Source: Clostridium sp. 12(A)
GTDB lineage: Bacteria; Bacillota; Clostridia; Lachnospirales; Lachnospiraceae
Assembly (NCBI GenBank): GCA_000526575.1
Contig: JAGI01000002.1
Span: forward strand, 2,279,501 to 2,343,500
Reading direction: 5' to 3'
Length of the DNA stretch: 64,000 bases
The notes beneath the pieces are model-generated. The model ran no database searches. It saw only the letters and a program-made list of their open reading frames with translations, and was not told the DNA's origin. The position numbers and the translations under genes were made by a program. Below are positions 19,535 to 49,397 of this stretch, in pieces (position 1 is the first letter of the stretch; each line of letters begins with the position of its first letter).

Positions 19535-19837
19535 AAAGTGATAAACTGATGAGCAGGAGTAAGTAAGATCTCTATATCATGCACAGAGAGCTTCCGGTTG
19601 GTGAGAGGAAGCGTTGATGTCTGATCTGAATGGACCTGCGAGGGCGGCTTGAAACCAGATTCTGGGAGTAGATGACGACGGGGTTCCTATCCGTTACCAA
19701 GGGGAGGCACATGTTAGTGTGTTATAAGTGGGAAAAGTCTAACTTTTCCAATCAGGGTGGTACCACGGAACCGTAATTATAGCTTCCGTCCCTCTTTTCC
19801 ATATTTGTATGGAAGGAGGGACGGGAGCTTTTTTTAT
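19535..19837 (+). promoter_or_regulatory. tryptophan T-box leader with terminator
   Basis: Stem I region carries AGAGAG, GGTTGGTGAGAGGAAGC and a specifier-loop context CTGAATGGACC; the codon TGG at 19631-19633 specifies tRNA-Trp. The T-box itself, AGGGTGGTACCACGG, is at 19754-19768 and would pair with the tRNA acceptor end. It is followed by a long terminator (19781-19837; GTCCCTC against GAGGGAC, then seven Ts). Uncharged tRNA-Trp should favour antitermination and trp expression. Confidence 0.95.
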
Positions 19838-26381: not shown

Positions 26382-26388
26382 AATGCCA

Positions 26389-26484
26389 CAAGAGGGAGCT
26401 CGTAAGCGGGCTGAGAGGAAGTAATCAAACTTCGACCTTTATAACCTGATTTGGGTAATGCCAACGTAGGGATTTATACGAGAC
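26389..26484 (+). promoter_or_regulatory. TPP riboswitch (THI element)
   Basis: The two conserved arms are present: GGGCTGAGAGGAAG around 26418, which contains the CUGAGA pyrimidine-sensing loop, and ACCTGATTTGGGTAATGCC followed by AACGTAGGGA, the pyrophosphate-sensing arm. Binding of thiamine pyrophosphate should favour the terminator at 26498-26530 and stop transcription of thiC-D. Confidence 0.95.
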
Positions 26485-26497
26485 GAATCTATTCTCT

Positions 26498-36059: not shown

Positions 36060-37667
36060 TCATGAATTTGTTGTGTATGTTCCACTAAATAGTAAATTTG
36101 AGCCTGCAGGTAAATCAACTAACGACGTGAAGTAAATCTCACTATATGTGCTAGTATTTCTAAGAAAACATAAAAGTGTTCTGGACGGTATGGCAGTGTG
36201 GACTACCGTATCAAATTGATCTCGCCTCAGTGGGTAACCGGCAATTAAATATGGTTTATTTGCATTCAAAGTTACTGTAGTTGTAATATTTGTCTGAATA
36301 TTAATTTGGGAGGGTCCATTAATATTTCCATTTCTATAATACCCACTATTAATATTTCCCCATGGACAATATAAACCAGAAATAGTTAGATTAGATATTT
36401 GAGTGCCATTTTGCTGTAAAAACACCCCACCATATTCTGAATAAAATTGCCATGCCCCGGTAGGCTGATTTCCCATTAGGGTAACAGTAGAACCACTGAG
36501 TGATGCAATTCCATTATCTGTAGCAGCTGACCCAATATACCAACTTGCAGAGTGTATTCTACAAAAGTAACTTGCAATTACACCCCACTTTTTATTATTT
36601 ACCCTGCAGGCATCTATTCTAGCATTACAAGATTCAAAATGAAAGCCAGCATACTGACTGTCACCTAATGCTTGGCAATACCATAATACTAGATTGGAAC
36701 AATCAATTCCTATGAAAGAATGATTACTTGTTTGTGTAAAATTGATTCCTGCTATTATTATTCTAGCAGTTGAACTTATACAGGTAATAGTATCTATATT
36801 ACACGAGATATTTAAAGATTCCCAATTATTAGCGCGTGTAATATGAAGCATTCCACTATGAAAATTAGATATATTAACAGCCTCATTATAGGTACCATCG
36901 GCTATCCTGACAGTTGCACTATGACCGCCTAAATCCTTTGGAATATTATTTAACGCGCTTTTTATCGTCTTATAAGGATTAGAGCTTGTACCATCACCAG
37001 TGATATCAGAACCATTATTATCTACGTACACAAACATATCATTATTAAGTGGCTTCGTATCCTTAATATACTTTTTAACTTTCCCCATAAAAACCTTTGT
37101 TGAATCCCCAACCTCCGGAACCGGATACTTTGCATCAATCATCTCCAGTGTTTCAATCACAGTCTCTGAAATATCTCCACCCGTGGCATCCACCCTTTCC
37201 ATCACATCCTGAATCGTAGCCGTCCCAGAAGGGACAACTTCAATATTAATTTCAGCCGCATCCTGTACTACATTCTGAATATTATAGATATACGAAGTAG
37301 AAGCCACACCATTATACTTAGGCATTTCATCCGGTATCACTGCAGTTACAATACAAAATAGAATCTCTTCTTCACCATCTTTAGCATATAGACCAATATT
37401 TTGTATGTAATAAGCAACCTGAATTTCTTCATTGCTAAAAAGCACTCTCGTCTGAATCATATTATTATCTAATACTTTCGTTTCAGGATAATCTAAAATC
37501 TGCTTAACCCCATCCATATCAGTTAGCGCTTTATAATCAGTCCCAACTGGATACTCATAATCCGAAATCTTTGCTTTGGTTATGTTTAATTTCAGTTCTC
37601 CTGCAACCGCTCTGGATATCAGGCTTTCTCCTGCTGCCGTTATAATCGCTTTGTTATACTGTCCCAT
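36060..37667 (-). CDS. phage-type tail fibre with beta-helix receptor-binding domain
   Basis: 535 residues. The first 150 or so match the phage tail-collar fibre N-domain (MGQYNKAIITAAGESLISRA), which attaches fibres to a baseplate. A linker leads to YVDNNGSDITGDGTSSNPYK (about 205-225), the opening of right-handed parallel beta-helix proteins, followed by repeated short Asn/Ile-rich strands to about residue 450, as in tailspikes that bind or cut surface glycans. The 3' part is more AT-rich than the 5' part, which suggests exchange of the binding domain. No chaperone gene follows. It is the last gene of the tail operon. Confidence 0.85.
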   Translation of the reverse strand: MGQYNKAIITAAGESLISRAVAGELKLNITKAKISDYEYPVGTDYKALTDMDGVKQILDYPETKVLDNNMIQTRVLFSNEEIQVAYYIQNIGLYAKDGEEEILFCIVTAVIPDEMPKYNGVASTSYIYNIQNVVQDAAEINIEVVPSGTATIQDVMERVDATGGDISETVIETLEMIDAKYPVPEVGDSTKVFMGKVKKYIKDTKPLNNDMFVYVDNNGSDITGDGTSSNPYKTIKSALNNIPKDLGGHSATVRIADGTYNEAVNISNFHSGMLHITRANNWESLNISCNIDTITCISSTARIIIAGINFTQTSNHSFIGIDCSNLVLWYCQALGDSQYAGFHFESCNARIDACRVNNKKWGVIASYFCRIHSASWYIGSAATDNGIASLSGSTVTLMGNQPTGAWQFYSEYGGVFLQQNGTQISNLTISGLYCPWGNINSGYYRNGNINGPSQINIQTNITTTVTLNANKPYLIAGYPLRRDQFDTVVHTAIPSRTLLCFLRNTSTYSEIYFTSLVDLPAGSNLLFSGTYTTNS

Positions 37668-37676
37668 TTTACCTCC

Positions 37677-38198
37677 TTAAATTGTTGTTATCTTCGTGCT
37701 GCTCACCGTAGTCCCTATGTAATAACCGCCTCTCATATCCTTTTTCACTTCCTGGCTTGCCAGGATCTTAATATGGGCCGGAATTATATCCCACAGCAGA
37801 TCATAAAGGAGATTCAATGTACCGTACCGATCAGATGTAACCTTAATTGTCAGCAAATAAGTTTTGCTATTCACTGACAAAACATACCCATCTGCTCCAA
37901 AAAGTTCTGCCAAACGATTTTTAAGAAATCCGATTGTAAATGGAACTACCGTATTATATCTTTGCAAGATTCTGCTTCTTCTGTATTCTAACGTTTCTCC
38001 CTGATAAGAAATTCCAAAGCGCTTCTCGTAAAGAAGAATCGTATTCTCATCAGCCGTCTGTATAAAGCAATTATCTCGAACAGACCGAATACTGTCTTCC
38101 ACTGCTTCCAGCTCCACCTCTTCTGTATCCAAGAGCTGGTTGAATTCCAGAATATTTTTAAACCACTCCGGTAGCAGCATTTTTAGATCAACCGCCAT
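37677..38198 (-). CDS. baseplate protein, XkdU/YmfQ (DUF2313) type
   Basis: 173 residues. The family signature is LLPEWFKNILEFNQLLDTEE near the start, then LLYEKRFGISYQGETLEYRR. In PBSX and Mu-like phages this protein (XkdU, gp48) links the baseplate wedge to the fibre. It overlaps the upstream baseplate J gene by 11 bases and lies 9 bases before the fibre gene, the canonical place. Confidence 0.82.
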   Translation of the reverse strand: MAVDLKMLLPEWFKNILEFNQLLDTEEVELEAVEDSIRSVRDNCFIQTADENTILLYEKRFGISYQGETLEYRRSRILQRYNTVVPFTIGFLKNRLAELFGADGYVLSVNSKTYLLTIKVTSDRYGTLNLLYDLLWDIIPAHIKILASQEVKKDMRGGYYIGTTVSSTKITTI

Positions 38199-39336
38199 TG
38201 ATTGTCACCGCCCCCAAAACTGGCACCTGCTGCTCAGTAGAAGTCTCTACGCACACTACATCAGATGCGATTCCATTAATAGTTACATCCGTCACATTGA
38301 CAACTTCAGGAATAGTTAGAATTGCGTATATCACCCTGGACACATAGACTATCACTGCATACTCTAGCTTTTGACTTTTCAGCACGGTACCCCAGGATTG
38401 CCGAACAGATTCTAAGTATTCTTCTATCTTGTCCATAATCTGGTTTTTATAGGCTGTCTCTCCGTTTTGAATACTGGATAAAAATTGAACGGTGAGAGAA
38501 AAATCAAGCTTCAGTTCTTTACCAGTTCCAATGGTAACGGCTGCTCCAATAGGGGCCATTCCATAACCATTGGGGGATGGTTCTAAATCATCTCCTTCCA
38601 GAGGGCAAATCGCATTTTGCACCTTTGTAATAAGAGTATCTCCCGCCGGCTTATAATTTCCGTCAAGAATACTGCACAACACAGTCCCCCCTCCCTGCCA
38701 GGCCGGGTAGATTTGAACGGCTCCAACACCATCAATGGCAAGAATTGCATTTCGGTAGGATGCAATGTTTCCTCCAAACGTGGCAACGTCAAAGGTAGCT
38801 AAGTACCTTTCTCTCAAGGAAGAATCTCCTTCTTCCTCTGTTCCAGCTGAAAGAAGCTCTGTAAGAAGCGCAGATGTAAGACCAGTCACATAATCAATAG
38901 CAACCAACTGACCAGAATAACTATTACCAATCTCACCTGGAGATTCGCATTCCATTCGATAACTATATCCATTATCAGAATGATCAATGGCGTCCATCAC
39001 CTTATAGGTTAAATATCCACTGCCTGTAAGAGCTGAAAATCGGGAGCCAATTGGCACATCTATATTAAAATAACCTTTTTTAACTGCCTTAGTAGCTGCT
39101 TTTCTTTCTATTCCACGCTCTGCTACCAGCATATTGAGCCAATTGCCTCCAGCCGTTTCCGCATAGGCATTTTTCTGCACAGAATCCAGATCAAGATACA
39201 GTCCTTCCAGATGCCAGCTCTCCGGTCCAAGAGCCGTCTGAATCATGGAGCCTTCCCTTTTGTCAATGGTATCTGGTACTCTTTTTAACTGTGATGCCAG
39301 TATATTCGCATACGTTTTATTACTAAAATCAATCAA
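38188..39336 (-). CDS. baseplate J-like wedge protein (XkdT type)
   Basis: 382 residues. The N-terminal half has TIDKREGSMIQTALGPESWH and the AKKGYF/GSRF barrel; VATFGGNIASYRNAILAIDGVGAVQIYP is the conserved baseplate J centre (about 180-207). It is equivalent to P2 gpJ, T4 gp6 and PBSX XkdT, forming the wedge that opens on contraction. Length is normal (about 350-390). The ATG overlaps the stop of the upstream gene by 4 bases. Confidence 0.9.
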   Translation of the reverse strand: MIDFSNKTYANILASQLKRVPDTIDKREGSMIQTALGPESWHLEGLYLDLDSVQKNAYAETAGGNWLNMLVAERGIERKAATKAVKKGYFNIDVPIGSRFSALTGSGYLTYKVMDAIDHSDNGYSYRMECESPGEIGNSYSGQLVAIDYVTGLTSALLTELLSAGTEEEGDSSLRERYLATFDVATFGGNIASYRNAILAIDGVGAVQIYPAWQGGGTVLCSILDGNYKPAGDTLITKVQNAICPLEGDDLEPSPNGYGMAPIGAAVTIGTGKELKLDFSLTVQFLSSIQNGETAYKNQIMDKIEEYLESVRQSWGTVLKSQKLEYAVIVYVSRVIYAILTIPEVVNVTDVTINGIASDVVCVETSTEQQVPVLGAVTINGG

Positions 39337-39737
39337 ATTTCCACCTCCCCGGGGATATTTCCATATACGGTTTTAACCTCAAATGTGCATTTCAGTGTCC
39401 CCTGGTCTGAGGTATCAAATATAAAATCATTCACCGAAAGAATTCGTTTATCAGAAGAAAAAGCCTCTTGAATACGTCTTTTTATCATACTTGCTACATA
39501 TTCCGGAGGCTTACCAATTAGCTTTTTTAATTCCCTGCCAAAATTATACGTATAGATCTGGTTTTGATATCTTTCTGTAGCTAGAATGATTTCTATAGCC
39601 TGTTTCATGGCTTCCAATCCACCGCCTACTTTTTTAATTGTACCGGTACTTTTATCCACAAGATAAGTTTCAGTAGGGTACTCCCTGTTCTCATTTTCAT
39701 AAATAACTGCACTAGCTGAATTTGGTAATGTTGCCAT
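39333..39737 (-). CDS. baseplate protein, XkdS (DUF2634, gp25-like)
   Basis: 134 residues. ETYLVDKSTGTIKKVGGGLEAM near the start and IYTYNFGRELKKLIGKPPEYV in the middle match DUF2634. This is the gp25/GPW-like wedge subunit that seeds sheath assembly in contractile tails. Positioned between the DUF2577 and baseplate J genes as in PBSX. Confidence 0.88.
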   Translation of the reverse strand: MATLPNSASAVIYENENREYPTETYLVDKSTGTIKKVGGGLEAMKQAIEIILATERYQNQIYTYNFGRELKKLIGKPPEYVASMIKRRIQEAFSSDKRILSVNDFIFDTSDQGTLKCTFEVKTVYGNIPGEVEI

Positions 39738-39745
39738 CGTATCAC

Positions 39746-40039
39746 CTACACTTTCGACATTACGATATAATTCTGTCCGGCATTGGCTTTCAATACCAGA
39801 ACCTTGTCTCCTGGTTTAATGCCTGGGTTCAACACAATCTTCTCTCCCTGTACATTAATATCTCTGTATTTTAAATTATCGGTTAGAACAGCCACTGGCT
39901 CCGTCACTATCAATTGAGTCGCCTGAATTTTTAATGTCAATGGAGCTGCTGATACGACAGTAGCGTAACCAGTATCCAAAAGATCCATGGCTTTTACAGT
40001 ATCACTAATAATATACTTAAGTCGCTCTATGAGTTCCAT
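39746..40039 (-). CDS. DUF2577 family baseplate protein (XkdR type)
   Basis: 97 residues, a beta-rich OB-like protein: TGYATVVSAAPLTLKIQATQ and then KIVLNPGIKPGDKVLVLKAN, the usual DUF2577 pattern. In PBSX-like tails it belongs to the central spike or hub assembly. It overlaps the hub gene upstream by 13 bases. Confidence 0.85.
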   Translation of the reverse strand: MELIERLKYIISDTVKAMDLLDTGYATVVSAAPLTLKIQATQLIVTEPVAVLTDNLKYRDINVQGEKIVLNPGIKPGDKVLVLKANAGQNYIVMSKV

Positions 40040-41022
40040 TGGCCCTCCTTATTGATGATTTTTGCATCGACGCTCATGGTATGCTCTCCGTCTGAAAAAG
40101 TATGATTCACTTTATCCAGGAGCAAATAATATCCATTGGAGAGCTCTGGTATTTCCTTTATTTTAAACTTTGCCATTGCTCCTGCTCTGAGCCCTGGTAC
40201 TCCCCCTAAACCACTCACGGATAACGTTTTTAGCACTCGGTCATAATACGCCATCATGATATTTCCCTGCTCATTGATTTGTGCTTCGTTAAGATTATCA
40301 TCTACTTTGTCATACTTCTGCAGGAGTCCCCATTTTTTAATTGTTGTATGGTCATTGAATATATAGGTATCTCCCTGGCCCGTCTCTTTATTGGACCGGA
40401 CCAGCTTTACCTGATTATAAGTGTCTGAATCTATATCAGACTTATAAGAATAGTCTGTAATGATGCTGCCATTGCCAATTAATATATCAGACATCATATT
40501 CTTAGCCTCTTTTAGAGACAGCTTACCAAAATCATCATAAAAAACAAATGTTTTGCCAGTACTGTTCTGAGTTACCATGAGAGCGTATTCAATTATATCC
40601 AGGCACTCTGTATTTTCCTTTGTCAGATAGGGAATCCCTTGTCCGGTATCTTCTATTTCTCCTACTTGAAGCTGCATATCGCCTGCAATCTGACTTATTA
40701 TTTCTCCCAGCTTTTTATTGTTGAAACTATAACTGGATTTCGCTTTTAAATAACGGAGCTGGTCATAGGCGGTGACTGAAACCTCGCCAGAGCGACTCTG
40801 TTCTATAATAAAAACGAATCCCAGAAAAATTTCTTTTCCATCAACATAAAATAGTACTTTAGCACCCTCTGTCAGATTAATTGGCTTATCCTGAAGAAAC
40901 GTAAATGTAAGCTTGCCTGCACTTCCACCTCTGTTTGTGGTATAAGTTACCTTCTGTGTAATGGGGGCATAATCGTACAAGGAATATGACTCATCATCAT
41001 AAATTAAAAGTTTGTAGCTCAT
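40027..41022 (-). CDS. tail hub protein (XkdQ type, gp27/gpD-like)
   Basis: 331 residues. The first 100 residues form the beta-barrel of hub proteins (VTYTTNRGGSAGKLTFTF; KVLFYVDGKEIFLGFVFI). The rest matches XkdQ, ending in a fold for the needle base (HTFSDGEHTMSVDAKII). It forms the ring between tube and spike. Translationally coupled to the XkdP-like gene upstream (4-base overlap). No lysozyme domain is visible. Confidence 0.85.
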   Translation of the reverse strand: MSYKLLIYDDESYSLYDYAPITQKVTYTTNRGGSAGKLTFTFLQDKPINLTEGAKVLFYVDGKEIFLGFVFIIEQSRSGEVSVTAYDQLRYLKAKSSYSFNNKKLGEIISQIAGDMQLQVGEIEDTGQGIPYLTKENTECLDIIEYALMVTQNSTGKTFVFYDDFGKLSLKEAKNMMSDILIGNGSIITDYSYKSDIDSDTYNQVKLVRSNKETGQGDTYIFNDHTTIKKWGLLQKYDKVDDNLNEAQINEQGNIMMAYYDRVLKTLSVSGLGGVPGLRAGAMAKFKIKEIPELSNGYYLLLDKVNHTFSDGEHTMSVDAKIINKEGQWNS

Positions 41023-41744
41023 CCTGTCACCTGCAATTGATCTGCTTTCACCCAGCCACGACTGCCGCCTATTAATATGGGATAGGCCCTGGAAGCATCC
41101 GGAACGATTCTCGAAACGGTAGTCGCCAAATTGTTGGCGGTTCCAGTTGGTTTATCTCCATAACTGCTGCTAAAATATGTACCATTTGCAATAACGGAAG
41201 CACCTACTCTAAGTTCTGGAACAGCAGATGCAGAACGTTCCTGATCTTCTGGTTGAGTAGTTCCATTTGCCGGTTGTTCTGCCGGAGGAAGTGTTATCCT
41301 GATTGGCGCGTAGTTCCGATATTCTTTAAACTTGATTTTATAATAGATATCTCCAGCTTCCCCTCCTTTTTCTGTTGTCTCAAAGCTGTCAATTACCGCA
41401 CTGATGTTTGTATCATACATGCGGCTTCCCCTTGCATCGTACCGGCTGATTACAATATCACATACTTCCTTGTTATCCCGGGCATCCAGTATTGCCTCCA
41501 CGAGATCACCTGGTTCGGTCCAGTCGTGCCCGCACATAAGTGGATCATCGCTATCACCAGGGAAATAGGATTCCCAGGACACCTCCATTAAGGAGGGCAG
41601 CCTGGGAACAACAATTTCCCCAATATCTAAAATATCGTACGTCTTATGATCCGCTGGATAAGAAATTGTATATTCTTTCGGGTTAACCGGAAATTCAATT
41701 GTATTGCCACCGATATCTGCAAAAAATTTATACTTATTTCGCAT
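41019..41744 (-). CDS. XkdP-like tail protein with C-terminal SH3-like domain
   Basis: 241 residues. The N-terminal 150 residues match XkdP/gp53-type proteins (FPVNPKEYTISYPADHKTYD; LPSLMEVSWESYFPGDSD). XkdP of PBSX carries a LysM domain at its C-terminus. Here, after a Pro/Gln/Glu linker (about 152-172), the C-terminus is instead a short bacterial SH3-like module, LRVGASVIANGTYF ... GGSRGWVKADQLQ. Such a domain also binds cell wall. It should sit at the baseplate and may help puncture or hold peptidoglycan. Confidence 0.8.
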   Translation of the reverse strand: MRNKYKFFADIGGNTIEFPVNPKEYTISYPADHKTYDILDIGEIVVPRLPSLMEVSWESYFPGDSDDPLMCGHDWTEPGDLVEAILDARDNKEVCDIVISRYDARGSRMYDTNISAVIDSFETTEKGGEAGDIYYKIKFKEYRNYAPIRITLPPAEQPANGTTQPEDQERSASAVPELRVGASVIANGTYFSSSYGDKPTGTANNLATTVSRIVPDASRAYPILIGGSRGWVKADQLQVTG

Positions 41745-41752
41745 GATACCTC

Positions 41753-43993
41753 CTATCCTGTAACAACATTACTGCTTGATGCGTGCTGGACTCCCAACAC
41801 ATTATTTAACACATTAACCATAGCATCAATATCAGAGCCGCCTCCACCGTAATTGTTTTGATTTACAGTCGCATTGGTCTGTGGAACCGTCAGGTTTACC
41901 AAAGCTACGTATTGGCGCTCTGATAAATCTCTAAGGAGTTTAATATTTTCATCAGAAATATTGACATCCTGTTCAATCTTATCTACCTTGCCTACTTTAC
42001 CGACATTTCCAATATCACCCGTTACAGCACCAGCTCCTCCAAGCAGACCGGCAGCGCCAGCAGAAGGCATTTTATCCATTAGGCTATCAAGACTAAAGTT
42101 TGTGTTATCTATTTTGTTTCCAAGAGTAGCACCATATTTGCTCCATTCATCTGCGGTATCCCCAGTATCCAATTTAGTCATGCGTTCTATGGTAAAAGCT
42201 TGTTCCCCAAACTTGTCATCGACCCATTCACTTAACTTCTCCCTAAAGCCTTTTACACCATCAGCCATGTTTGTTTTAAACACAGCATCAATGGCATCTG
42301 CTACGGTTTCTATCTGACTTAATATAGAATCAAATAATCCAAATAAAAGATGAGCAATGGCGGAAGCCGGATCATTCATTACATTGGCAAAAAATTCTGC
42401 AAAGATTGCGATTAAATTCCACAAGTCTGCAACCATGTTATATCCAACGGCATAGATGAAGCCGAACACATAGCCAATTTTTTCTCCTATCTGCTCAAAT
42501 GTGACACCAGCTTGCAATATTCCCATAATTGCTGCTCCTATCAGCAGTCCTACGAGGATAAATGGCATTGCTGCCGCAAGCCAACCTGATGCAGTTAATA
42601 AGCCAGACACTAATCCGATCGTCCCTGCTGCAGCCAAAGCCAAGCCGACCCCTAATAAGATCGGATATATATAGTCCCAATTTTCAACAATCGCATTGGC
42701 TCCAGCAACCAATACATCAACAGCGCCGGAAGCAACATCACCAAGAATTTCAACAGCACCTATAATTCCCTCTATCACCGTCTTACCGGTATCACTGTTT
42801 AAGAACTCACTCATTTTATCCAGGACACCGTCTAAAGAGTGAATGCCAGCATTCTTAATCAGATTCCAGGAATCCGACCAAGTCATAGGCATGTTTTTAA
42901 ACTGGTCATTAATCTGATCCGTAGCACTTAACAAGGCATTTTTTACAACGTCAGCTGTGATAACACCTTTATCCGCCAATCCACTGATTTCTTCTACCGG
43001 CTTACCAAGATAATCTGCAATTGCCTGTATCGCATTAGGAGCACCTTTAAAAACAGTGTTTAATTCTTCTCCACTTATGACGCCTTTTGCCATAGCCTGG
43101 CCAAGCTGTTCGGTAGCGGAACCAATTTCCTCCTGACTGGCTCCTGCCATCTTAAACTGTTTACTTATGTTTTCTGCAACGGCAACCACCTCGTCACTTC
43201 CTGAAAAAGCGTTTCCCGCAGTTTGGCCCAGCTTGGCTACAACATCAGCCGTATCAAGATAGCTGGTTCTGGATCTTTGTGCAGACCGGTAGATTTTTTC
43301 CTGTAGCTGCTCTGTTTCCTGTAAACTGCTATTTGTATTATCATTTCCTTGACCACCTGCATCAATCGAGGGGGGATTAAACCCTTGATTCATAACACTT
43401 AATCGGGCGGTGGAACGTGTCATTTGATCGGATAAGCTAAATAATTCTTTTCCCATCTTAAAGTTAGAAGCTACAGACACCACTTTTTTCAAGGTTGAAA
43501 AGAGGCCTACTGCTGATTTACTGGTTTCTTTCACCTTATTATTATGTTTGTCCTGGGCAGTTGCTGCTTTTGAGGTATTGTCTGCAATTTTAATCAGCTG
43601 CGCTTCCATACGATCAAACCCAGAAGATGAGATTTTGTTAGAGGCTTGTCCAATTTCTCTCATATTTCCAATGACTGCACCAGTCGCTCCTCCAATCGAT
43701 TTGCGCATGGTCATATCCGTTTTGGTCATGGTTTGATCAATCCGTTTCATCTGCTTTACCGCAGAGTTACCAAGATCAAGGAACTTGTTGGACGTTTCTC
43801 CAATTTGTCTTATATTTGCAATAACAGCACCAGTCGCTCCTCCAATGGACCGACGCATGGTCATCTCTGTTTTCACAACTGCATGATCAACACGCTTCAT
43901 CTGATTAACAGCGGCATTCCCAAGCTCAAGGAACTTGGAAAAAGACTCGCTGAATTGATCACTTACTGCTAAGCTTTCTTTTATCTCTCCCAT
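41753..43993 (-). CDS. tail tape measure protein
   Basis: 746 residues. The N-terminus has two near-identical 50-residue repeats (21-70 and 71-120), then a coiled region. Residues about 225-400 contain the tape-measure core, LGQAMAKGVISGEELNTVFK and VITADVVKNAL. Several hydrophobic segments near 440-540 are typical. It sets tail length and is ejected first. By the 1.5 angstrom per residue rule this length would give a tail near 110 nm (estimate). ATG follows GGAGGAACC, whose bases overlap the stop of the small upstream frame. Confidence 0.92.
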   Translation of the reverse strand: MGEIKESLAVSDQFSESFSKFLELGNAAVNQMKRVDHAVVKTEMTMRRSIGGATGAVIANIRQIGETSNKFLDLGNSAVKQMKRIDQTMTKTDMTMRKSIGGATGAVIGNMREIGQASNKISSSGFDRMEAQLIKIADNTSKAATAQDKHNNKVKETSKSAVGLFSTLKKVVSVASNFKMGKELFSLSDQMTRSTARLSVMNQGFNPPSIDAGGQGNDNTNSSLQETEQLQEKIYRSAQRSRTSYLDTADVVAKLGQTAGNAFSGSDEVVAVAENISKQFKMAGASQEEIGSATEQLGQAMAKGVISGEELNTVFKGAPNAIQAIADYLGKPVEEISGLADKGVITADVVKNALLSATDQINDQFKNMPMTWSDSWNLIKNAGIHSLDGVLDKMSEFLNSDTGKTVIEGIIGAVEILGDVASGAVDVLVAGANAIVENWDYIYPILLGVGLALAAAGTIGLVSGLLTASGWLAAAMPFILVGLLIGAAIMGILQAGVTFEQIGEKIGYVFGFIYAVGYNMVADLWNLIAIFAEFFANVMNDPASAIAHLLFGLFDSILSQIETVADAIDAVFKTNMADGVKGFREKLSEWVDDKFGEQAFTIERMTKLDTGDTADEWSKYGATLGNKIDNTNFSLDSLMDKMPSAGAAGLLGGAGAVTGDIGNVGKVGKVDKIEQDVNISDENIKLLRDLSERQYVALVNLTVPQTNATVNQNNYGGGGSDIDAMVNVLNNVLGVQHASSSNVVTG
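43634..43933 (-). repeat. 150-bp tandem repeat within the tape measure gene
   Basis: Two 50-codon units, amino acids 21-70 and 71-120. Both run FLxLGN-AV-QMKR-D, then TMR-SIGGATGAVI-N, and end in a SNK triplet. Differences are mostly conservative (V/I, R/K). The register is exact, so the duplication kept the frame. Confidence 0.9.
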
Positions 43994-44002
43994 GGTTCCT
44001 CC

Positions 44003-44140
44003 TTACTTTTGGGGCCGACTTTTAATTTCTTTGACTGCCATCTGATACATAAGTATCTTTTCTTTTTCTGGAAGATCCGCAATCTCCCCGGGGAAGCGGC
44101 CGTGGTTAACTAACATATAGTAAGCAAGCTGCACGTCCAT
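44003..44140 (-). CDS. tail assembly chaperone frameshift extension (T part)
   Basis: 45 residues if read from its own ATG (MDVQLAYYMLVNHGRFPGEI), but it lies in the -1 frame relative to the upstream chaperone, with no stop between the slippery site at 44158 and this ATG. A ribosome slipping back one base at A-AAA-AAC would read LLNGGD and then this frame. The fusion would be about 188 residues long. This is the layout of lambda gpG/gpGT. It lies directly before the tape measure gene, as in almost all long-tailed phages. Confidence 0.75.
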   Translation of the reverse strand: MDVQLAYYMLVNHGRFPGEIADLPEKEKILMYQMAVKEIKSRPQK

Positions 44141-44151
44141 GTCTCCCCCGT

Positions 44152-44568
44152 TTAAGAGTTTTTTGCTTCTTCCAGCTTATCTTCCGCATCCTTCATTCCG
44201 TTTAATTCCAGAATCGCTTCTGACAGACGATTATACTCTCCGATACTCAGCATCTGAGATGGCACATCCAAAGGATCTTCTGTTCCATAATAGTTGCACA
44301 TTTCCTGTGCGCTGAAATCTGGTTCCTGAACACATGCAAGAACGAGTCTCTTTGTATACAGCAGGTTATCCAGCTTCTCAACAGGTGAACCATTGACATT
44401 AACTGTTTTTCTGCTCATACGTGCCAGTTTCTCATTTTCTTTCTGAGTAATTGCTTTAATCACAAATGGAACTGCGTTTCCTTCCTCATCTTTAAAACGA
44501 TTGGATACAACGACTTCCTTGGTTACACCTGCCATGACTGGCTGTAAAAATGCTTTTAATGCACTCAT
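44152..44568 (-). CDS. tail assembly chaperone (XkdN type, G part)
   Basis: 138 residues. MSALKAFLQPVMAGVTKEVV at the start, LYTKRLVLACVQEPDFSAQE in the middle and a Glu/Lys-rich end match XkdN. It keeps the tape measure protein soluble and recruits tube subunits. It ends GCA AAA AAC TCT TAA; the heptamer A-AAA-AAC two codons before the stop is a canonical -1 frameshift site. Start after AGGAGA; 9 bases after the tube gene. Confidence 0.85.
   Translation of the reverse strand: MSALKAFLQPVMAGVTKEVVVSNRFKDEEGNAVPFVIKAITQKENEKLARMSRKTVNVNGSPVEKLDNLLYTKRLVLACVQEPDFSAQEMCNYYGTEDPLDVPSQMLSIGEYNRLSEAILELNGMKDAEDKLEEAKNS
44158..44164 (-). promoter_or_regulatory. programmed -1 ribosomal frameshift heptamer
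   Basis: A AAA AAC in the zero frame of the chaperone, codons 136-137. It obeys X-XXY-YYZ. A -1 slip leads with no stop into the 45-codon frame that ends at 44003. A GGGGGAG stretch lies 9-15 bases downstream; no strong pseudoknot is obvious by eye. Confidence 0.75.
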
Positions 44569-44576
44569 AATCTCTC

Positions 44577-45047
44577 CTATTCTCCCAACTGAGTCGGGGC
44601 TGTAAATGCGTTAAGGATTTCAACATTTGTGAAACTAAATGTAATATCCATGGTTAAAAATTCTGTATCCGCGTCCAGAATAGCAATTGGAAGCTTCTGC
44701 AGCTTCACGTTATATAAAGCTACTGTCTGAGACCCAATGGTGCTTCCTTCGTCTTCATTTGTGATCTGGAATGTGAAGTACGGAAGCTTTCCTGTCTTTA
44801 AATAAGTCTTTAACATATTTAAGAATTCCGGTGTTCCGTAATAAACAGTTGCTGATCCGGTAAGGGACACACCAGAAGTTTTTTTCTGTACAAGATTGGT
44901 ACCTACCACCTTAAAATCTGATTCCTGAAATTCTGCATCCGCCTGGAATTTCTTTAAGCCAAACATTTCTACGTTACGGCCATCAATCACGGCAAAAGCA
45001 CGACCAGCCTTTCCGTTTAACGCATCACGCTCTAATAAAAATGACAT
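44577..45047 (-). CDS. tail tube protein (XkdM type)
   Basis: 156 residues, DUF2001/XkdM family. LNGKAGRAFAVIDGRNVEMF near the start, LTGSATVYYGTPEFLNMLKTY in the centre and a beta-rich C-terminus. It polymerises into the inner tube of a contractile tail. Lies between the sheath and chaperone genes as in PBSX. Start ATG after AAAAGGAGG. Confidence 0.92.
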   Translation of the reverse strand: MSFLLERDALNGKAGRAFAVIDGRNVEMFGLKKFQADAEFQESDFKVVGTNLVQKKTSGVSLTGSATVYYGTPEFLNMLKTYLKTGKLPYFTFQITNEDEGSTIGSQTVALYNVKLQKLPIAILDADTEFLTMDITFSFTNVEILNAFTAPTQLGE

Positions 45048-45060
45048 ACTCTACCTCCTT

Positions 45061-46398
45061 TTAATCTGTAAGGGTTGCTGTGATATAAATTTTTTCAACA
45101 GCTGCCACCGGTTGAATTGCAAGTGTAATTACAACGGCATTGATTGCCTCGCCTGCCCCTACAACCACATCATCTGCAACAAAGTTCTGAATTCCTCCAT
45201 TTGCCTGAATCTCATTTAAATATCCTACGATCCATGCCTTAAGAAGGTCTCTGCCTGAAGCATTATTCTGAATTTTACCAATGTAATTCTGTGAGAAATT
45301 CTTGTAAATATCGTTTGATACGGTATCCAGTGTTCGGATAACCTGATTCAGACAAAATGCCTCTCCCTTGTCTGAAGTGAATGTGGTCAAAGTATTTATG
45401 TCTGACATCACCTTTACACTGCCAAACTCTTCAAAAAATACAATCTGCCCTTTGTTAAGAGCTTCATCAATTTCTTGTGTACTCAAGCGAGGTGAAACAT
45501 TTACTGCATCCGGATACTGTGCATATACCAGGGATTCACTATAATTCGCACCAGCCTGGGATCCACCAACCCACCAGGTTACCTGCTGTGGAGAAAGAAT
45601 AGTTCCATCAGACAAAATCACGCCATTCTTTACTGAAATAACGGCATCTGTATTGCTTTCTGCACCTGCCATAACAGCCTGACATTTTTTACCAAGATTG
45701 TCTCTCATACGTTTTATGAAAGCTACATACGCGGCCTGTACCGTGCTATCGGAGCCATCATAAATTACAATGTTAAAACTAAGTGGTTCCAAAGCGGTAA
45801 GAAAAGCAGAATGAGAAGCATTGCTCACAGTTCCATCGGTACCTCCTGCAAGATATTTCCCCGCACTGGCTGCTAATTTACCAGTTCCGGCAAATACAAC
45901 CCAGTCATTTCCCTTTAAATCTGCAACCACCTTTCCTGTCTGGGAATGTTTCACCATTCCATCAACAACCGTCTGAACGGTAAAATTACCTTCATCATCT
46001 GGATCAGCAATAACAGAAACAGAAATATCATTTCCTCTAATACCGCTATATTTTGCTGTAATTGTAAGCGGCTCTAAAGCTGCAGATGCCTTTGTGGCAC
46101 CGGTCGTATTGGGACGATAAAGTAAGACTTTTACTGGTCCCTTGGTATGATCTGATCCTTTAAAAATCTCTCTTAAAAACAGAGCCTTGCTATGAATGGA
46201 ATCGTATCCAATATACGGCGTTAAATCATCCCCCGCATGAATGGTCATAATCTCACCCTCTGGTCCCCAGGACAACGGTTCACAGATTGCTACAATCCCT
46301 CTATTTCCCACACTGACAGCCTGCTCCATATTTGATTTAACATTTATGTATACACCAGGCTGTTTTTTATTCTGACTGCTCCAATTTCCTCCGGCCAT
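45061..46398 (-). CDS. contractile tail sheath protein (XkdK type)
   Basis: 445 residues, the XkdK length. It begins MAGGNWSSQNKKQPGVYINV. The middle has VNVSPRLSTQEIDEALNKGQ and CLNQVIRTLDTVSNDIYKNF, and the C-terminal domain (about 370-445) has FVADDVVVGAGEAINAVVIT and AVEKIYITATLTD, the region that forms the inner sheath mesh. Its presence shows a contractile (R-type) tail, not a flexible one. ATG follows the stop of a small gene by 1 base. Confidence 0.95.
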   Translation of the reverse strand: MAGGNWSSQNKKQPGVYINVKSNMEQAVSVGNRGIVAICEPLSWGPEGEIMTIHAGDDLTPYIGYDSIHSKALFLREIFKGSDHTKGPVKVLLYRPNTTGATKASAALEPLTITAKYSGIRGNDISVSVIADPDDEGNFTVQTVVDGMVKHSQTGKVVADLKGNDWVVFAGTGKLAASAGKYLAGGTDGTVSNASHSAFLTALEPLSFNIVIYDGSDSTVQAAYVAFIKRMRDNLGKKCQAVMAGAESNTDAVISVKNGVILSDGTILSPQQVTWWVGGSQAGANYSESLVYAQYPDAVNVSPRLSTQEIDEALNKGQIVFFEEFGSVKVMSDINTLTTFTSDKGEAFCLNQVIRTLDTVSNDIYKNFSQNYIGKIQNNASGRDLLKAWIVGYLNEIQANGGIQNFVADDVVVGAGEAINAVVITLAIQPVAAVEKIYITATLTD

Positions 46399-46578
46399 TT
46401 ATTTTTCCTCCATCTTATCGTTGAAAAATCTATTTAAAATTTCTTTTGCTTCTTCCACGGTATACTCCTCTTCAGGCAGTAATGCCCTGGCAAAATCCTG
46501 TTGATATGAATCAAATTCCTTACTGCTGATGAGAGCTTCTGTTTTATACTTTACTGTTCCTTTTTTATTTGAAGCCAT
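46399..46578 (-). CDS. small tail-cluster protein, 59 residues
   Basis: The frame reads MASNKKGTVKYKTEALISSK and ends in EEAKEILNRFFNDKMEEK. It is acidic and helical at its end, with YTVEEAKEIL in the middle. Its ribosome site is weak (GGTGTAAATCAGA). It overlaps the upstream tail terminator gene by 14 bases, and its own 3' end supplies the GGAGGAAA ribosome site of the sheath gene. Small proteins at this spot are common in PBSX-like clusters (just before xkdK). No function is assigned. Confidence 0.7.
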   Translation of the reverse strand: MASNKKGTVKYKTEALISSKEFDSYQQDFARALLPEEEYTVEEAKEILNRFFNDKMEEK

Positions 46579-47014
46579 TCTGATTTACACCTCCTCTATA
46601 AGATTCCAGGGATTCTATCATTGGTGTGTCGTTTTGATAAGACATAGTGACTTTAACAGTAAACTCATAGTGCAGCTCTCCATTTACAATCTTAAAGCTC
46701 CGGTTGTAGGTTCGTAATTTAGCAGCTTCATAAGGAATAAATTCAAGTATGAAATCCAGCTTATCCGCAACAGACGGACGCAGATCAAATGTATCTCCAC
46801 TGTTTTTTTCAGCCTTATAAACCACATCAAAGCCAATCTTTTTCATAAGACGACTACCAATACGGCTTTCTATTTCAACATCTGTATAAAAAATACAGAA
46901 TTCAGAAGCTTCTGACTCCTGTTGATCCTGATTAACAGATACCTGAGTATTGGGAAAATGTTCTTTCAAAACCTCAGCTATGGATTCTATTAATTTATCA
47001 AGCGTAAATGTCAT
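46565..47014 (-). CDS. tail terminator-like protein
   Basis: 149 residues. MTFTLDKLIESIAEVLKEHF at the start, then a beta-rich middle (EFCIFYTDVEIESRIG) and YEFTVKVTMSYQNDTPMIES. This resembles the tail-terminator family placed ahead of sheath genes in Firmicutes phages and tailocins. It would cap the tube end. In a headless particle this cap closes the free end of the tail. Start after AAAGGAGGAGG. First structural gene of the cluster. Confidence 0.65.
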   Translation of the reverse strand: MTFTLDKLIESIAEVLKEHFPNTQVSVNQDQQESEASEFCIFYTDVEIESRIGSRLMKKIGFDVVYKAEKNSGDTFDLRPSVADKLDFILEFIPYEAAKLRTYNRSFKIVNGELHYEFTVKVTMSYQNDTPMIESLESYRGGVNQNGFK

Positions 47015-47170
47015 TTAACCTCCTCCTTTCCTACTATGGAGCTCCAATCACCATCACTTATTCTCTGTAAACAATATCTGTTATCCACACACCACGTCCT
47101 CCTCTGTAAACTTATCCAGATTCTTCTTTCTGGAATAATACAATTATAAATCTGCTATATCGTCTTAGAC

Positions 47171-47202
47171 AGGACACGATTTGGATAAGCATTAAATGTC
47201 CT
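47171..47202. promoter_or_regulatory. inverted repeat ahead of the structural genes
   Basis: AGGACA at 47171 and TGTCCT at 47197-47202 form a perfect 6-bp inverted repeat with 20 bases between. It sits in the 186-base gap (47015-47200) between the sigma-like regulator and the structural genes, where a late promoter would be expected. No clear sigma-A promoter is visible there, so a promoter read by the regulator is possible. The gap holds no convincing gene. Confidence 0.25.
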
Positions 47203-47698
47203 ACTCAAGAACAATGGCATCCGCTCCGAATAAGTAAACGCTCAGTATTTCTGTTGCTTCGGATACCCATCTTCGTATGGTTCTGTCTGTACTATGTAGA
47301 ATTTCAGCAATTTCCTCCTGAGTCACATTGTCCAGATAGTACAATTTAAAGGCCTCAAACTTTTCCGGCGCATTTTTTCTTATCTGCTCTTCTTTTAAAA
47401 GCTTCATACATTTATCCAGGTGTGCAATCATTACGATGCTTCGGAGCTTACTTTTCAGGATACTGTTAATATAAATGTCCTCTTCTGAGGATTTCTGAGA
47501 ACTGCTGCGGTCATCCAAATATGATAGTTCAGAGATGCCCTCTATCATCCCCTGATGTATCCGGTTATAATTCTCCATCAGTTTCTTGGCATTGTGAAAA
47601 ACCTTTGTCCTGCTGCATTTTTTCTGAGACTTCTCAAACAACTGAACCGCTTCCAGTGCTGCTGACTTTACTAATTGTTCTGCCACTGCCTGATCCAT
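47201..47698 (-). CDS. sigma-70 region 4-like phage regulator
   Basis: 165 residues from an ATG after GGGAGGTG. The last third is a helix-turn-helix like sigma region 4: YYLDNVTQEEIAEIL-HSTDRTIRRWVSEAT. The N-terminal part is helical and not conserved. Small sigma-like proteins such as Xpf of PBSX and ArpU/RinA types switch on late phage genes; this one is placed just upstream of the structural genes. It is likely a positive late regulator (inference). It starts inside the previous gene. Confidence 0.75.
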   Translation of the reverse strand: MDQAVAEQLVKSAALEAVQLFEKSQKKCSRTKVFHNAKKLMENYNRIHQGMIEGISELSYLDDRSSSQKSSEEDIYINSILKSKLRSIVMIAHLDKCMKLLKEEQIRKNAPEKFEAFKLYYLDNVTQEEIAEILHSTDRTIRRWVSEATEILSVYLFGADAIVLE

Positions 47699-47948
47699 GC
47701 TTACACCTCCCTGCTGCCAAAATTTCATTTCTAACCTTATCCCATTCCACTGCTAGTGGGTCCTGCACCTCCACAGATTCCATAGGTTCAAACGTATACC
47801 TGCCAAATGCCCTTGCCCCTGAGCTTGCATAAGATGAGATTGACGCGCAGGGGATTTTTAAAAGTGCTGATGCTTCTAATGCACTGTATTGCCCCATCTT
47901 GCAGCCATTGTCATATAAGGTATATATTTTTCTAACTTCCTTACTCAT
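47634..47948 (-). CDS. small phage regulatory-type protein
   Basis: 104 residues. KIYTLYDNGCKMGQYSALEA with SALLKIPCASISSYASSG resembles small phage proteins with a YxLYD strand and an HTH-like helix pair (start after GGAGGAATCAGCA). The last 20 residues overlap the start of the sigma-like gene by 65 bases, an unusually long overlap. The tail sequence is Ser/Gly-rich and may be a read-through end. No firm function. Confidence 0.55.
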   Translation of the reverse strand: MSKEVRKIYTLYDNGCKMGQYSALEASALLKIPCASISSYASSGARAFGRYTFEPMESVEVQDPLAVEWDKVRNEILAAGRCKHGSGSGRTISKVSSTGSGSVV

Positions 47949-48108
47949 TGCTGATTCCTCCTTTTACTTTTCTTTCAAAATAGTTTCCTACTGCAAATAA
48001 TCTCCCATGATCCTTACACGAGCAATTCTTTTTAAGTGAATTGGAAGGATACGATTTCCCACAATACATGCATTTCTTTTTAACATCACAAAAGTTAACC
48101 TTTTCCAT
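47941..48108 (-). CDS. small cysteine-rich protein
   Basis: 55 residues from an ATG after GGAGGGAAGGG. CMYCGKSYP and NCSCKDHGR give a CxxC...CxCxxH pattern, probably a zinc ribbon. It overlaps the next gene by 8 bases. It is the first open frame of the leftward transcript from the switch promoter. Function unknown; DNA or RNA binding is plausible from the zinc ribbon. Confidence 0.6.
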   Translation of the reverse strand: MEKVNFCDVKKKCMYCGKSYPSNSLKKNCSCKDHGRLFAVGNYFERKVKGGISNE

Positions 48109-48775
48109 CCCTTCCCTCCACAACTGACATCTCTTTCAAAAGCTCTTATTAACCTCAATTTATTTACCAACAATTGTATCGCCACTCTGCTTTGGACAAT
48201 AAAATACCAAGTACCAATACTTAATTTTCAACGTTGCTTAATACTTTCACAGACTCTTCACAGTTTCATCAAAATACCGTCACAATTTCCCAGTATATTA
48301 GTAAATGTAAAGAGACAGCATTTAAATAAACTTTTTTTCATACTCAGCCGACAGGATCCCCCAATCTTGTCGGCTCCTCCCTTTTATCGGGAAATATAAA
48401 CCCTTCCCAGTCAAATGAATAATGCATTTCATACTTACTATCTATGAATATAAACCTCATGCTATTTTAGAGTCTTTTTAAGACACATTTATTGTAAAAA
48501 AAATTGCTTATAATCTATATCTTATTTCACTCGACTCTAAAGCCAATCATTTCACCACTAATAAAATCAGATTTTGTATATGTTCATCTAACGATTTGAT
48601 ACTTAAAATTTTTAATTATTCAATTCTTAGATTTTAAAATCCTAATACTTTTCAAAGTAAACAGGTATCTAACAAAATACCCTCCCCCATAAACACACCA
48701 TCAGCTTATCAATACAATATCCCCATATACCCTCCTCACGCATCGTACAATATAATAATTTAAACCAAAACTATT
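48109..48775 (-). other. long untranslated leader of the tail operon
   Basis: About 670 bases with no credible gene on either strand; the frames are short and lack ribosome sites. It holds one strong hairpin (48346-48375, AGCCGACA against TGTCGGCT, 8 bp with a 14-base loop) and one copy of the operator (48470-48486). It lies between the leftward promoter at 48797-48825 and the first small gene. Confidence 0.55.
48470..48486. promoter_or_regulatory. operator copy 1
   Basis: GAGTCTT-TTT-AAGACAC, 17 bp, 6 of 7 base pairs symmetric. It shares AAGACAC with the other three sites and lies inside the leader. Confidence 0.6.
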
Positions 48776-48792
48776 GTATCTTTTTAAGACAC
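48776..48792. promoter_or_regulatory. operator copy 2, over the leftward promoter start site
   Basis: GTATCTT-TTT-AAGACAC, 17 bp, 6 of 7 pairs symmetric. It begins 4 bases downstream of the -10 box of the leftward promoter, where bound repressor would block initiation. Confidence 0.7.
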
Positions 48793-48796
48793 TTAA

Positions 48797-48825
48797 AATA
48801 TATCACGTATCTCTTCCTCTGTCAA
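48797..48825 (-). promoter_or_regulatory. strong leftward promoter of the tail operon
   Basis: On the minus strand TTGACA, 17-base spacer, TATATT. The -10 box is 4 bases from operator copy 2. Confidence 0.8.
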
Positions 48826-48838
48826 TCACGAATATGAA

Positions 48839-48849
48839 TTTTAAGACAC
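48839..48849. promoter_or_regulatory. operator copy 3 (half site)
   Basis: TTTTAAGACAC. Only the right half matches; it lies between the two opposing -35 boxes. Confidence 0.55.
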
Positions 48850-48864
48850 TTTTATCATAATCCC

Positions 48865-48893
48865 TTGCATATCCTCTAATAATATAGTAAAAT
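48865..48893 (+). promoter_or_regulatory. promoter of the XRE repressor
   Basis: TTGCAT, 17-base spacer, TAAAAT. The -10 box runs into operator copy 4. Confidence 0.7.
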
Positions 48894-48901
48894 TAAGACA
48901 C
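48892..48901. promoter_or_regulatory. operator copy 4 (half site) at the repressor start site
   Basis: ATTAAGACAC overlaps the end of the -10 box and the expected +1 of the repressor promoter, allowing autoregulation. Confidence 0.6.
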
Positions 48902-48929
48902 AACAAGTGAAAAGAGAGGTATAAAAGTC

Positions 48930-49397
48930 ATGGGAATGGCAGAACGAATAAAAGAACGTAGACTTATCATGAAATATACTCAAGAAGAATTAGCCGAAAA
49001 ACTTGGACTTCAAAAATCTGCTATTGCAAAATACGAAAACGGGCGGGTGGAAAACATTAAGCGCTCTGTCATCGCTCACATGGCAAGCATTCTAGAATGC
49101 AGCCCGGCATATCTCATGGGCTGGAGTGAAGATACCAATATGAATCAGCCAATTCTTATGACAAAATCAGAAGAAGAACATCTGTTGAAATACCGCTCCA
49201 TCGATGACAAAGGAAGACATACCGTAGATACTATCCTTCAAATGGAATACAACCGCTGTGAACAAGAACAATCAAAGATTTCTCCAATCCCGCAAAGGGA
49301 CCGCGCCCACTTACAGGTCAATGCCGCTCACCAGCGTACCGATATAGAAGTAACGGATGAGATGAAACAATTCGACGATGCATTCTTTGATGAATAA
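48930..49397 (+). CDS. XRE/CI-like repressor of the tail cluster
   Basis: 155 residues. N-terminal HTH_3 (about 5-62): RIKERRLIMKYTQEELAEKL, then LQKSAIAKYENGR as recognition helix. The rest (about 65-155) is a charged helical tail with SIDDKGRHTVDTILQMEYNR, common in clostridial XRE regulators. No S24 peptidase motif and no neighbouring ImmA-type protease are visible, so the usual RecA-driven cleavage is not supported. It diverges from the tail operon, and operator copies 2-4 flank its promoter. It is most likely the switch repressor. Start after AGAGAGGT. Confidence 0.85.
   Translation: MGMAERIKERRLIMKYTQEELAEKLGLQKSAIAKYENGRVENIKRSVIAHMASILECSPAYLMGWSEDTNMNQPILMTKSEEEHLLKYRSIDDKGRHTVDTILQMEYNRCEQEQSKISPIPQRDRAHLQVNAAHQRTDIEVTDEMKQFDDAFFDE

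Follow-up and report, generated by a model that had tools for sequence, protein, structure and literature searches.

The window analysed here is a 64 kb stretch (64,000 nucleotides) from the 4.6 Mb genome of Clostridium sp. 12(A), placed in the genus Lacrimispora by its named relatives (G000:C2:2279501-2343500). At positions 36060-49397 it carries a phage-tail locus that has neither head nor lysis genes. The contractile-tail operon is intact and runs on the minus strand from 47014 to 36060 in PBSX order: terminator, a 59-amino-acid (aa) open reading frame (ORF), sheath, tube, chaperone, tape measure, XkdP-like protein, hub, DUF2577, initiator, baseplate J, Gp48 and fibre (Table 1). Genes were called from Pfam matches above cut-offs, from PHROG for the fibre, and otherwise as listed ORFs; the protein-family search covered the window from 30000 to 56000. 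An earlier, sequence-only reading had placed sheath, tube, chaperone, tape measure, hub, wedge proteins, fibre and a regulatory switch here in PBSX order among ordinary genes, and the family matches fall where it had put them. The short ORF between terminator and sheath is intact. So is the −1 slippery site A AAA AAC, which the chaperone gene contains right before its end and which leads into a second open frame. The flanks are indeed ordinary, with CsbD and Transgly_assoc on one side and an AraC regulator on the other; beta-galactosidase-like and MFS-like ORFs, read by eye, lie farther out.

Among the cluster genes Pfam gave no match to families of head, integrase or lysis proteins, in agreement with the reported lack of terminase, portal, capsid, integrase, holin and endolysin. 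One PHROG match labels the protein at 41019-41744 'endolysin'. The label is judged misleading, because the protein has no Pfam or NCBIfam match and aligns with its positional counterparts in relatives. Its AlphaFold model is of low confidence (mean pLDDT, the predicted local distance difference test, 47), with an all-beta C-terminal part. It is read as an XkdP-like tail protein, a name taken from gene order, and the DUF2577 protein may form the spike tip.

By its anatomy the locus is a predicted R-type tailocin, and killing would be its likely activity as judged from the genes. It has the contractile gene set (sheath, tube, baseplate, tape measure, fibre), it has no head, packaging or integration genes, and it has been kept by the host, being found at the same site in Lacrimispora algidixylanolytica (L036) with low ratios of non-synonymous to synonymous change (dN/dS), though two sister genomes, G001 and G010, are tail-less there. 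A lysis cassette, treated here as usual for R-type tailocins and not as defining, is absent from the locus. Gene order, an Xpf-like activator and a divergent repressor are as in PBSX and PBSX-like tailocins of Bacillus and solvent-producing clostridia; the PBSX capsid packages host DNA, and the cluster has no capsid or terminase match. The tube protein is closest to XkdM of PBSX among solved structures. The sheath and tube are also related to XkdK/XkdM-type proteins of the diffocin of Clostridioides difficile (CD1363, E 3.3e-22; CD1364, E 5.1e-7), but diffocin is distant in sequence, and lysis genes are missing from the window locus. Two papers report a capsid protein and lysis genes in PBSX (PMC9406221) and, in the tailocins of solvent-producing clostridia, retained capsid genes along with a holin and an endolysin in nearly every case (PMC10538166). 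The window locus differs from both in that the head and lysis modules are gone.

Table 1. Features of the tail locus in the window, by position
Position	Strand	Feature	Basis
36060..37667	-	Tail fibre, 535 aa, conserved N-terminus and variable C-terminus	PHROG tail-fibre matches
37677..38198	-	Gp48/XkdU-like baseplate protein	PF10076, E 2.4e-21
38188..39336	-	Baseplate J (XkdT-like)	PF04865, E 2.7e-48
39333..39737	-	Sheath initiator (XkdS-like)	PF10934, E 9.9e-24
39746..40039	-	DUF2577 (XkdR-like)	PF10844, E 1.2e-9
40027..41022	-	Hub (XkdQ/YqbQ-like)	PF24032, E 9.6e-104
41019..41744	-	XkdP-like tail protein	No Pfam or NCBIfam match; aligns with same-place proteins of relatives
41753..43993	-	Tape measure, 746 aa	PF20155, E 7.9e-42; TIGR02675
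43994..44151	-	Second chaperone frame, entered by -1 frameshift	Slippery A AAA AAC and open frame
44152..44568	-	Tail assembly chaperone (XkdN)	PF08890, E 2.6e-30
44577..45047	-	Tail tube (XkdM)	PF09393; PDB 2guj XkdM, E 1.4e-22
45061..46398	-	Tail sheath (XkdK)	PF04984 and 3 more sheath families over cut-off; PDB 3hxl, E 1.5e-108
46565..47014	-	Tail terminator	PF20765, E 2.9e-13
47143..47178	-	Candidate activator-dependent promoter, conserved	Alignment of 6 loci
47201..47728	-	Xpf-like activator, sigma-70 region 4	PF08281, E 2e-7
47634..47948	-	Regulatory ORF, 104 aa	phrog_25231; present in L036, L049, L050, L051, L074
47941..48123	-	ORF of 60 aa, uncertain	No family match
48478..48900	-	Four repressor-operator candidates GTGTCTTAA	Core TGTCTTAA at 48478, 48784, 48841, 48893
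48797..48825	-	Tail-side promoter TTGACA-17-TATATT, 11/12	
48930..49397	+	CI/Xre-like repressor without linked ImmA, C-terminal tag AAHQRTDIEVTDEMKQFDDAFFDE	PF01381 (HTH_3)

Comparison with headed relatives indicates that the window locus is a domesticated prophage which has lost its head. In the headed prophages L037 and L039, as in many IMG/VR contigs, the terminator is preceded by terminase, portal, MuF, protease, capsid and neck genes. L037, from Clostridium sp. HBUAS56010, and L039, from a Lacrimispora metagenome-assembled genome, are myovirus-type elements whose ten tail proteins are 70-92% identical to those of the window, the exceptions being the tape measure (63% and, in part, 46%), the terminator (53% and 47%) and the fibre (about 50%). 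L037 has the same activator (64%). Both differ from the window locus in possessing terminase, portal, capsid, early and lysis genes, as well as a repressor and a protease of another kind. A headed phage of genome G012 (L158) has a gene 64% identical to the window activator, upstream of terminase, and its order is orf104-activator-terminase...neck-terminator-sheath...fibre-holin-peptidase. The window-type layout is thus that of the G012 phage minus its head and lysis modules. The end of a neck gene survives as a scar between activator and terminator in L050 and, shorter, in L036, L048 and L049; the window locus has lost it.

Headless relatives fall into two groups. A1 loci lie at the window's site (the syntenic copy L036, with contigs L048-L051 and L074 assigned by the same gene order), and A2 loci lie at other sites (L041-L044 and contigs). 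Among 107 sheath-bearing loci, duplicates included, 60 are headed, 22 headless and 25 too short or unclear; four of the 22 headless loci are distant relatives with sheath identity of 27-28%. A phylogeny built on six tail proteins of 35 loci separates A1 and A2 into clades with 100% support each and headed phages between them, although some nodes are weak (37, 55, 86, 87). On the premise that heads, once lost, are not regained, the approximately unbiased (AU) test with 20 of the 35 loci rejected a single head-loss event for all headless loci (p=0.002), which argues against one common origin; a common origin of A1 and A2 was marginally rejected (p=0.0345). The terminator, which would face the head, has no match in A2 or in another headless locus, L040. 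Fibres of 747 aa in L036:18733-20976 and L041:18663-20906, as against 535 aa in the window, have a second fibre-like C-terminal part, possibly a variation of target range. With headed relatives and a syntenic copy known, the R-type interpretation offered earlier holds for an intact, headless, R-type-like contractile locus under purifying selection, and 'new' in the strong sense does not. No paper joining 'tailocin' with Lacrimispora was found in the open-licence literature.

The window repressor is divergent from the tail operon, and the tail-side promoter and the GTGTCTTAA sites lie between the two sides. For the 8-base core TGTCTTAA, 10 occurrences were found in the 64 kb against an expectation of 2.65, and 4 of the 10 lie within the activator-repressor stretch. 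Sister A1 loci have TGATTTAAAATCA-like sites (read by eye) instead of GTGTCTTAA; repressor and operators vary together across these loci. A leader of about 670 bases (48124-48790) separates the tail-side promoter from the first ORF; it contains one further operator site and a strong hairpin (48346-48375), and is longer than the cI-orf104 gap of L036.

A second headless tail of PBSX type, locus B (L003), lies between rpsT and holA/comEC about 0.2 Mb from the window locus. Locus B encodes a holin (PF05105), an amidase (PF01510), an M78 (ImmA-type) protease, a repressor and a full tail set; M78 we take to be the same family as DUF955. No head gene was seen among its ORFs by eye. Within the window's genome, an intact holin and amidase are found together at B only. 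Other holins of this family are solitary (C2:2022533) or accompanied by a broken amidase (C2:2997607), and an amidase is also present in a separate phage-like element (L148). A solitary holin-family gene at L248:17497-17991 lies amid host-like genes, adjoining a 179-aa ORF that has no Pfam match.

The rpsT site appears to be a conserved frame. The amidase adjoins rpsT in all seven rpsT-bearing stretches opened. A different tail occupies the site in G022, G007, G015 and G016 (L149-L152, L161); the tail proteins scanned in G022 are P2-like (FII tube, GpU, gpV), with holin and amidase present and regulators that match those of B. It seems that the tail module has been swapped inside a constant rpsT-holA frame.

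The repressors of the window locus, A2 and B end in a near-identical C-terminus, L..A.H.R.D..VT..M...D.AFFDE, even though those of A2 and B are, over their full length, only 31-42% identical to the window repressor. The DNA-binding halves and the operators of the window and B repressors differ despite this common tag. When the window repressor is compared with ten other tagged repressors, identity is 62-83% over the last 24 residues, as against 20-45% over the DNA-binding part. DNA encoding the tag is only 69-81% identical in the same comparison, and a recent transfer of the stretch is therefore unlikely. The tag is absent from the repressors of the headed L037 and L039, which stand beside another kind of protease, and from that of L040.

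A search of 25 Lacrimispora genomes (E < 1e-9) gave 39 tag matches, and the surroundings of all 39 were checked, mostly 1.5 kb on each side. ImmA adjoins 24 of these repressors, 14 lie elsewhere without ImmA, and one is degenerate. Five of the 14 are at the A1 site (the window, G023, G002 and the tail-less G001 and G010), four in A2 loci and five in other elements; a genome-wide ImmA search found none beside any of them. The five other elements (L198, L200, L201, L203, L204) include some with integrase- or recombinase-like ORFs, read by eye. For 19 of the 24 ImmA-paired repressors, holA is within reach (1.5 kb or a longer stretch). The window's genome has one match to the ImmA of B, at B itself; three further, weaker ImmA matches are in G022:C6, G010:C15 and G019:C8. 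Among 299 genomes of the family the tag occurs in only seven at E < 1e-8, the window's own included, and outside the genus all six matches adjoin an ImmA 48-54% identical to that of B. A second ImmA class was found beside repressors ending EEMEEIM.YV.FVKSRR(K/N)K in all five places fetched. Class of ImmA and repressor tail match; the table that compares them has 62 rows, in which some places are repeated, and its scripted rules missed L207 and L245.

These observations suggest that the window locus is probably an R-type tailocin dependent on the resident tailocin B for induction and lysis. The simplest reading of the tag is that of a recognition element for the protease, whereby the window repressor, which lacks a protease of its own, would be inactivated by the protease of B. 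Stress would lead the ImmA-type metalloprotease of B to cleave both its own repressor and the window repressor via the common tag, and inactivation of the latter would allow the window activator to transcribe the tail operon. The holin and amidase of B would then cause lysis and so set both types of particle free, the window's being a headless contractile device whose variable fibre would direct it at related cells. A distant lysis gene had been among the release routes envisaged in the sequence-only reading, and it is the best of them, the intact holin-amidase pair of B lying in a locus that also encodes the likely inducer protease.

A precedent exists in Listeria. PMC6872733 describes the monocin as a widespread tailocin locus with a DUF955-family protease beside a CI-like repressor; this protease, MpaR, cleaves its own repressor and that of a prophage, protease-less prophages depend on it, and two holin-lysin pairs lyse redundantly. 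The window's genome has the corresponding arrangement, a protease-less repressor and, elsewhere on the chromosome, a protease that would be compatible as judged from the tag. Monocins are F-type and have their own holin and endolysin, whereas the predicted client here is a second tailocin without lysis genes. The common C-terminal tag is visible in the sequences, and the term 'C-terminal' does not occur in the main text of PMC6872733. Headless tails as a kind are already known; what appears new is the absence of lysis genes combined with a putative tag-linked dependence.

A broader reading may be advanced tentatively. The rpsT-holA site, which in most genomes holds a tailocin, could be a genus-wide hub for induction and lysis, whose ImmA reads the short C-terminal tag as a portable induction code. 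Unrelated elements could plug into it by carrying the tag on otherwise different repressors; among them would be tailocins that lost their heads independently and have no lysis genes, and also several prophage-like elements.

Several observations weigh against these proposals. Homologues of the B amidase are present in all 25 genus genomes (E < 1e-15), and their co-occurrence with headless A loci is therefore statistically weightless. At G003:C92:58343-60725 and G006:C13:98636-100863 the amidase and the ImmA-paired tagged repressor are, by coordinates, about 2 kb apart, too little for a tail; the site there seems to have lysis and regulator genes only, and hence the B site is not a tailocin in every genome. 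In G001 and G010 repressor and activator persist at the window's site without the tail operon, and the tail is thus dispensable in these genomes. (In G001 its place is taken by a gene for a Kelch-repeat protein, L199:6665-7717.) G015 has a headless A2 locus and no ImmA match in its 280 contigs, and G005 has a degenerate tagged repressor beside the amidase, with its only ImmA elsewhere. The tag of L245 is divergent and that of L211 a variant. Headless L040 has an integrase-like gene, its own holin and an ImmA of class Ib, and its repressor is untagged. The tag could also have a role in dimerisation rather than in proteolysis.

Regulatory links other than the tag were also considered. Direct SOS control was rejected, as no GAACN4GTTC box was found at the promoters or in the stretches of either locus in the window's genome; one match in L154 is inside a tail gene. 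A shared operator found no support: GTGTCTTAA is absent from L003 and no other is visible. The candidate activator promoter (47143..47178) matches once in the window's genome with up to three mismatches allowed. With no visible shared operator and this single match, the lysis genes of B do not appear to be under the window's activator. These negative results, too, count against coupling of the two loci.

Alternatively, the window locus may be a functional tailocin that has no particular connection with B, is induced independently and leaves the cell by means of general autolysins or other prophages. This is unlikely, although further cell-wall functions exist in the genome (the solitary holin, the holin whose amidase is broken, and the amidase of the phage-like element) and the two loci have no visible common operators. 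Such independence leaves the conserved tag on an ImmA-less repressor unexplained, and B remains the site of the only intact holin-amidase pair found.

That the locus is a decaying prophage remnant which makes no functional particle, the refutation envisaged in the sequence-only reading, is improbable. In its favour, head and lysis genes are gone, the tail is missing at the same site in G001 and G010, and bpJ and gp48 are interrupted in the A2 copy L042. The tail ORFs of the window are nonetheless intact, the frameshift site included, and in sister loci the repressor and its operators vary jointly. The structural genes are under purifying selection: relative to L036, dN/dS is 0.01-0.12, except in the terminator and the fibre C-terminus. 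Across 14 genes, the window and a second genome of its species differ by 78 synonymous and 37 non-synonymous changes (dN/dS about 0.135). The whole fibre has a dN/dS of 0.24 against L036, with 79% identity over its first 201 aa and 54% over the entire aligned region. Outside the fibre C-terminus the terminator is the fastest-evolving A1 structural gene (58% identity to L036, dN/dS 0.34). Synonymous divergence from L036 is 0.29-0.59 in five tail genes and 0.87-1.76 in the flanking genes, the other tail genes being in the flanking range; the low values suggest that the five genes have been exchanged between lineages.

A contractile device for another use (signalling, delivery, or action on the producing cell, the last of these raised earlier and with nothing found in its favour) is highly improbable: beyond the missing lysis genes nothing further points to it, the operon gave no match to a cargo or toxin family, and headed phages have the tail genes in common with it.

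If the dependence on B is real, a tail weapon without lysis or induction genes that selection maintains beside a complete tailocin would be a case of co-resident phage relics dividing labour. The match of tag and protease could provide a sequence rule that predicts which prophages and tailocins of one genome fire together. Cross-talk of this sort is known in Listeria from genetics (PMC6872733); the comparison of 25 genomes adds a candidate for the matching element.

Some findings elsewhere in the genome should be mentioned. Capsid and terminase genes elsewhere, co-regulated with the cluster, had been named as evidence that would tell against a tailocin. Genome-wide, the portal of the headed relative was not found and TerL PF03354 had no match, but a terminase-like protein is encoded in the separate phage-like element L148 (G000:C2:335001-350000), together with the amidase and a 915-aa PF05183 protein of the RNA-dependent RNA polymerase type. 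In the window itself, a T-box leader and a thiamine pyrophosphate (TPP) riboswitch are present at 19540-19796 and 26382-26490, respectively.

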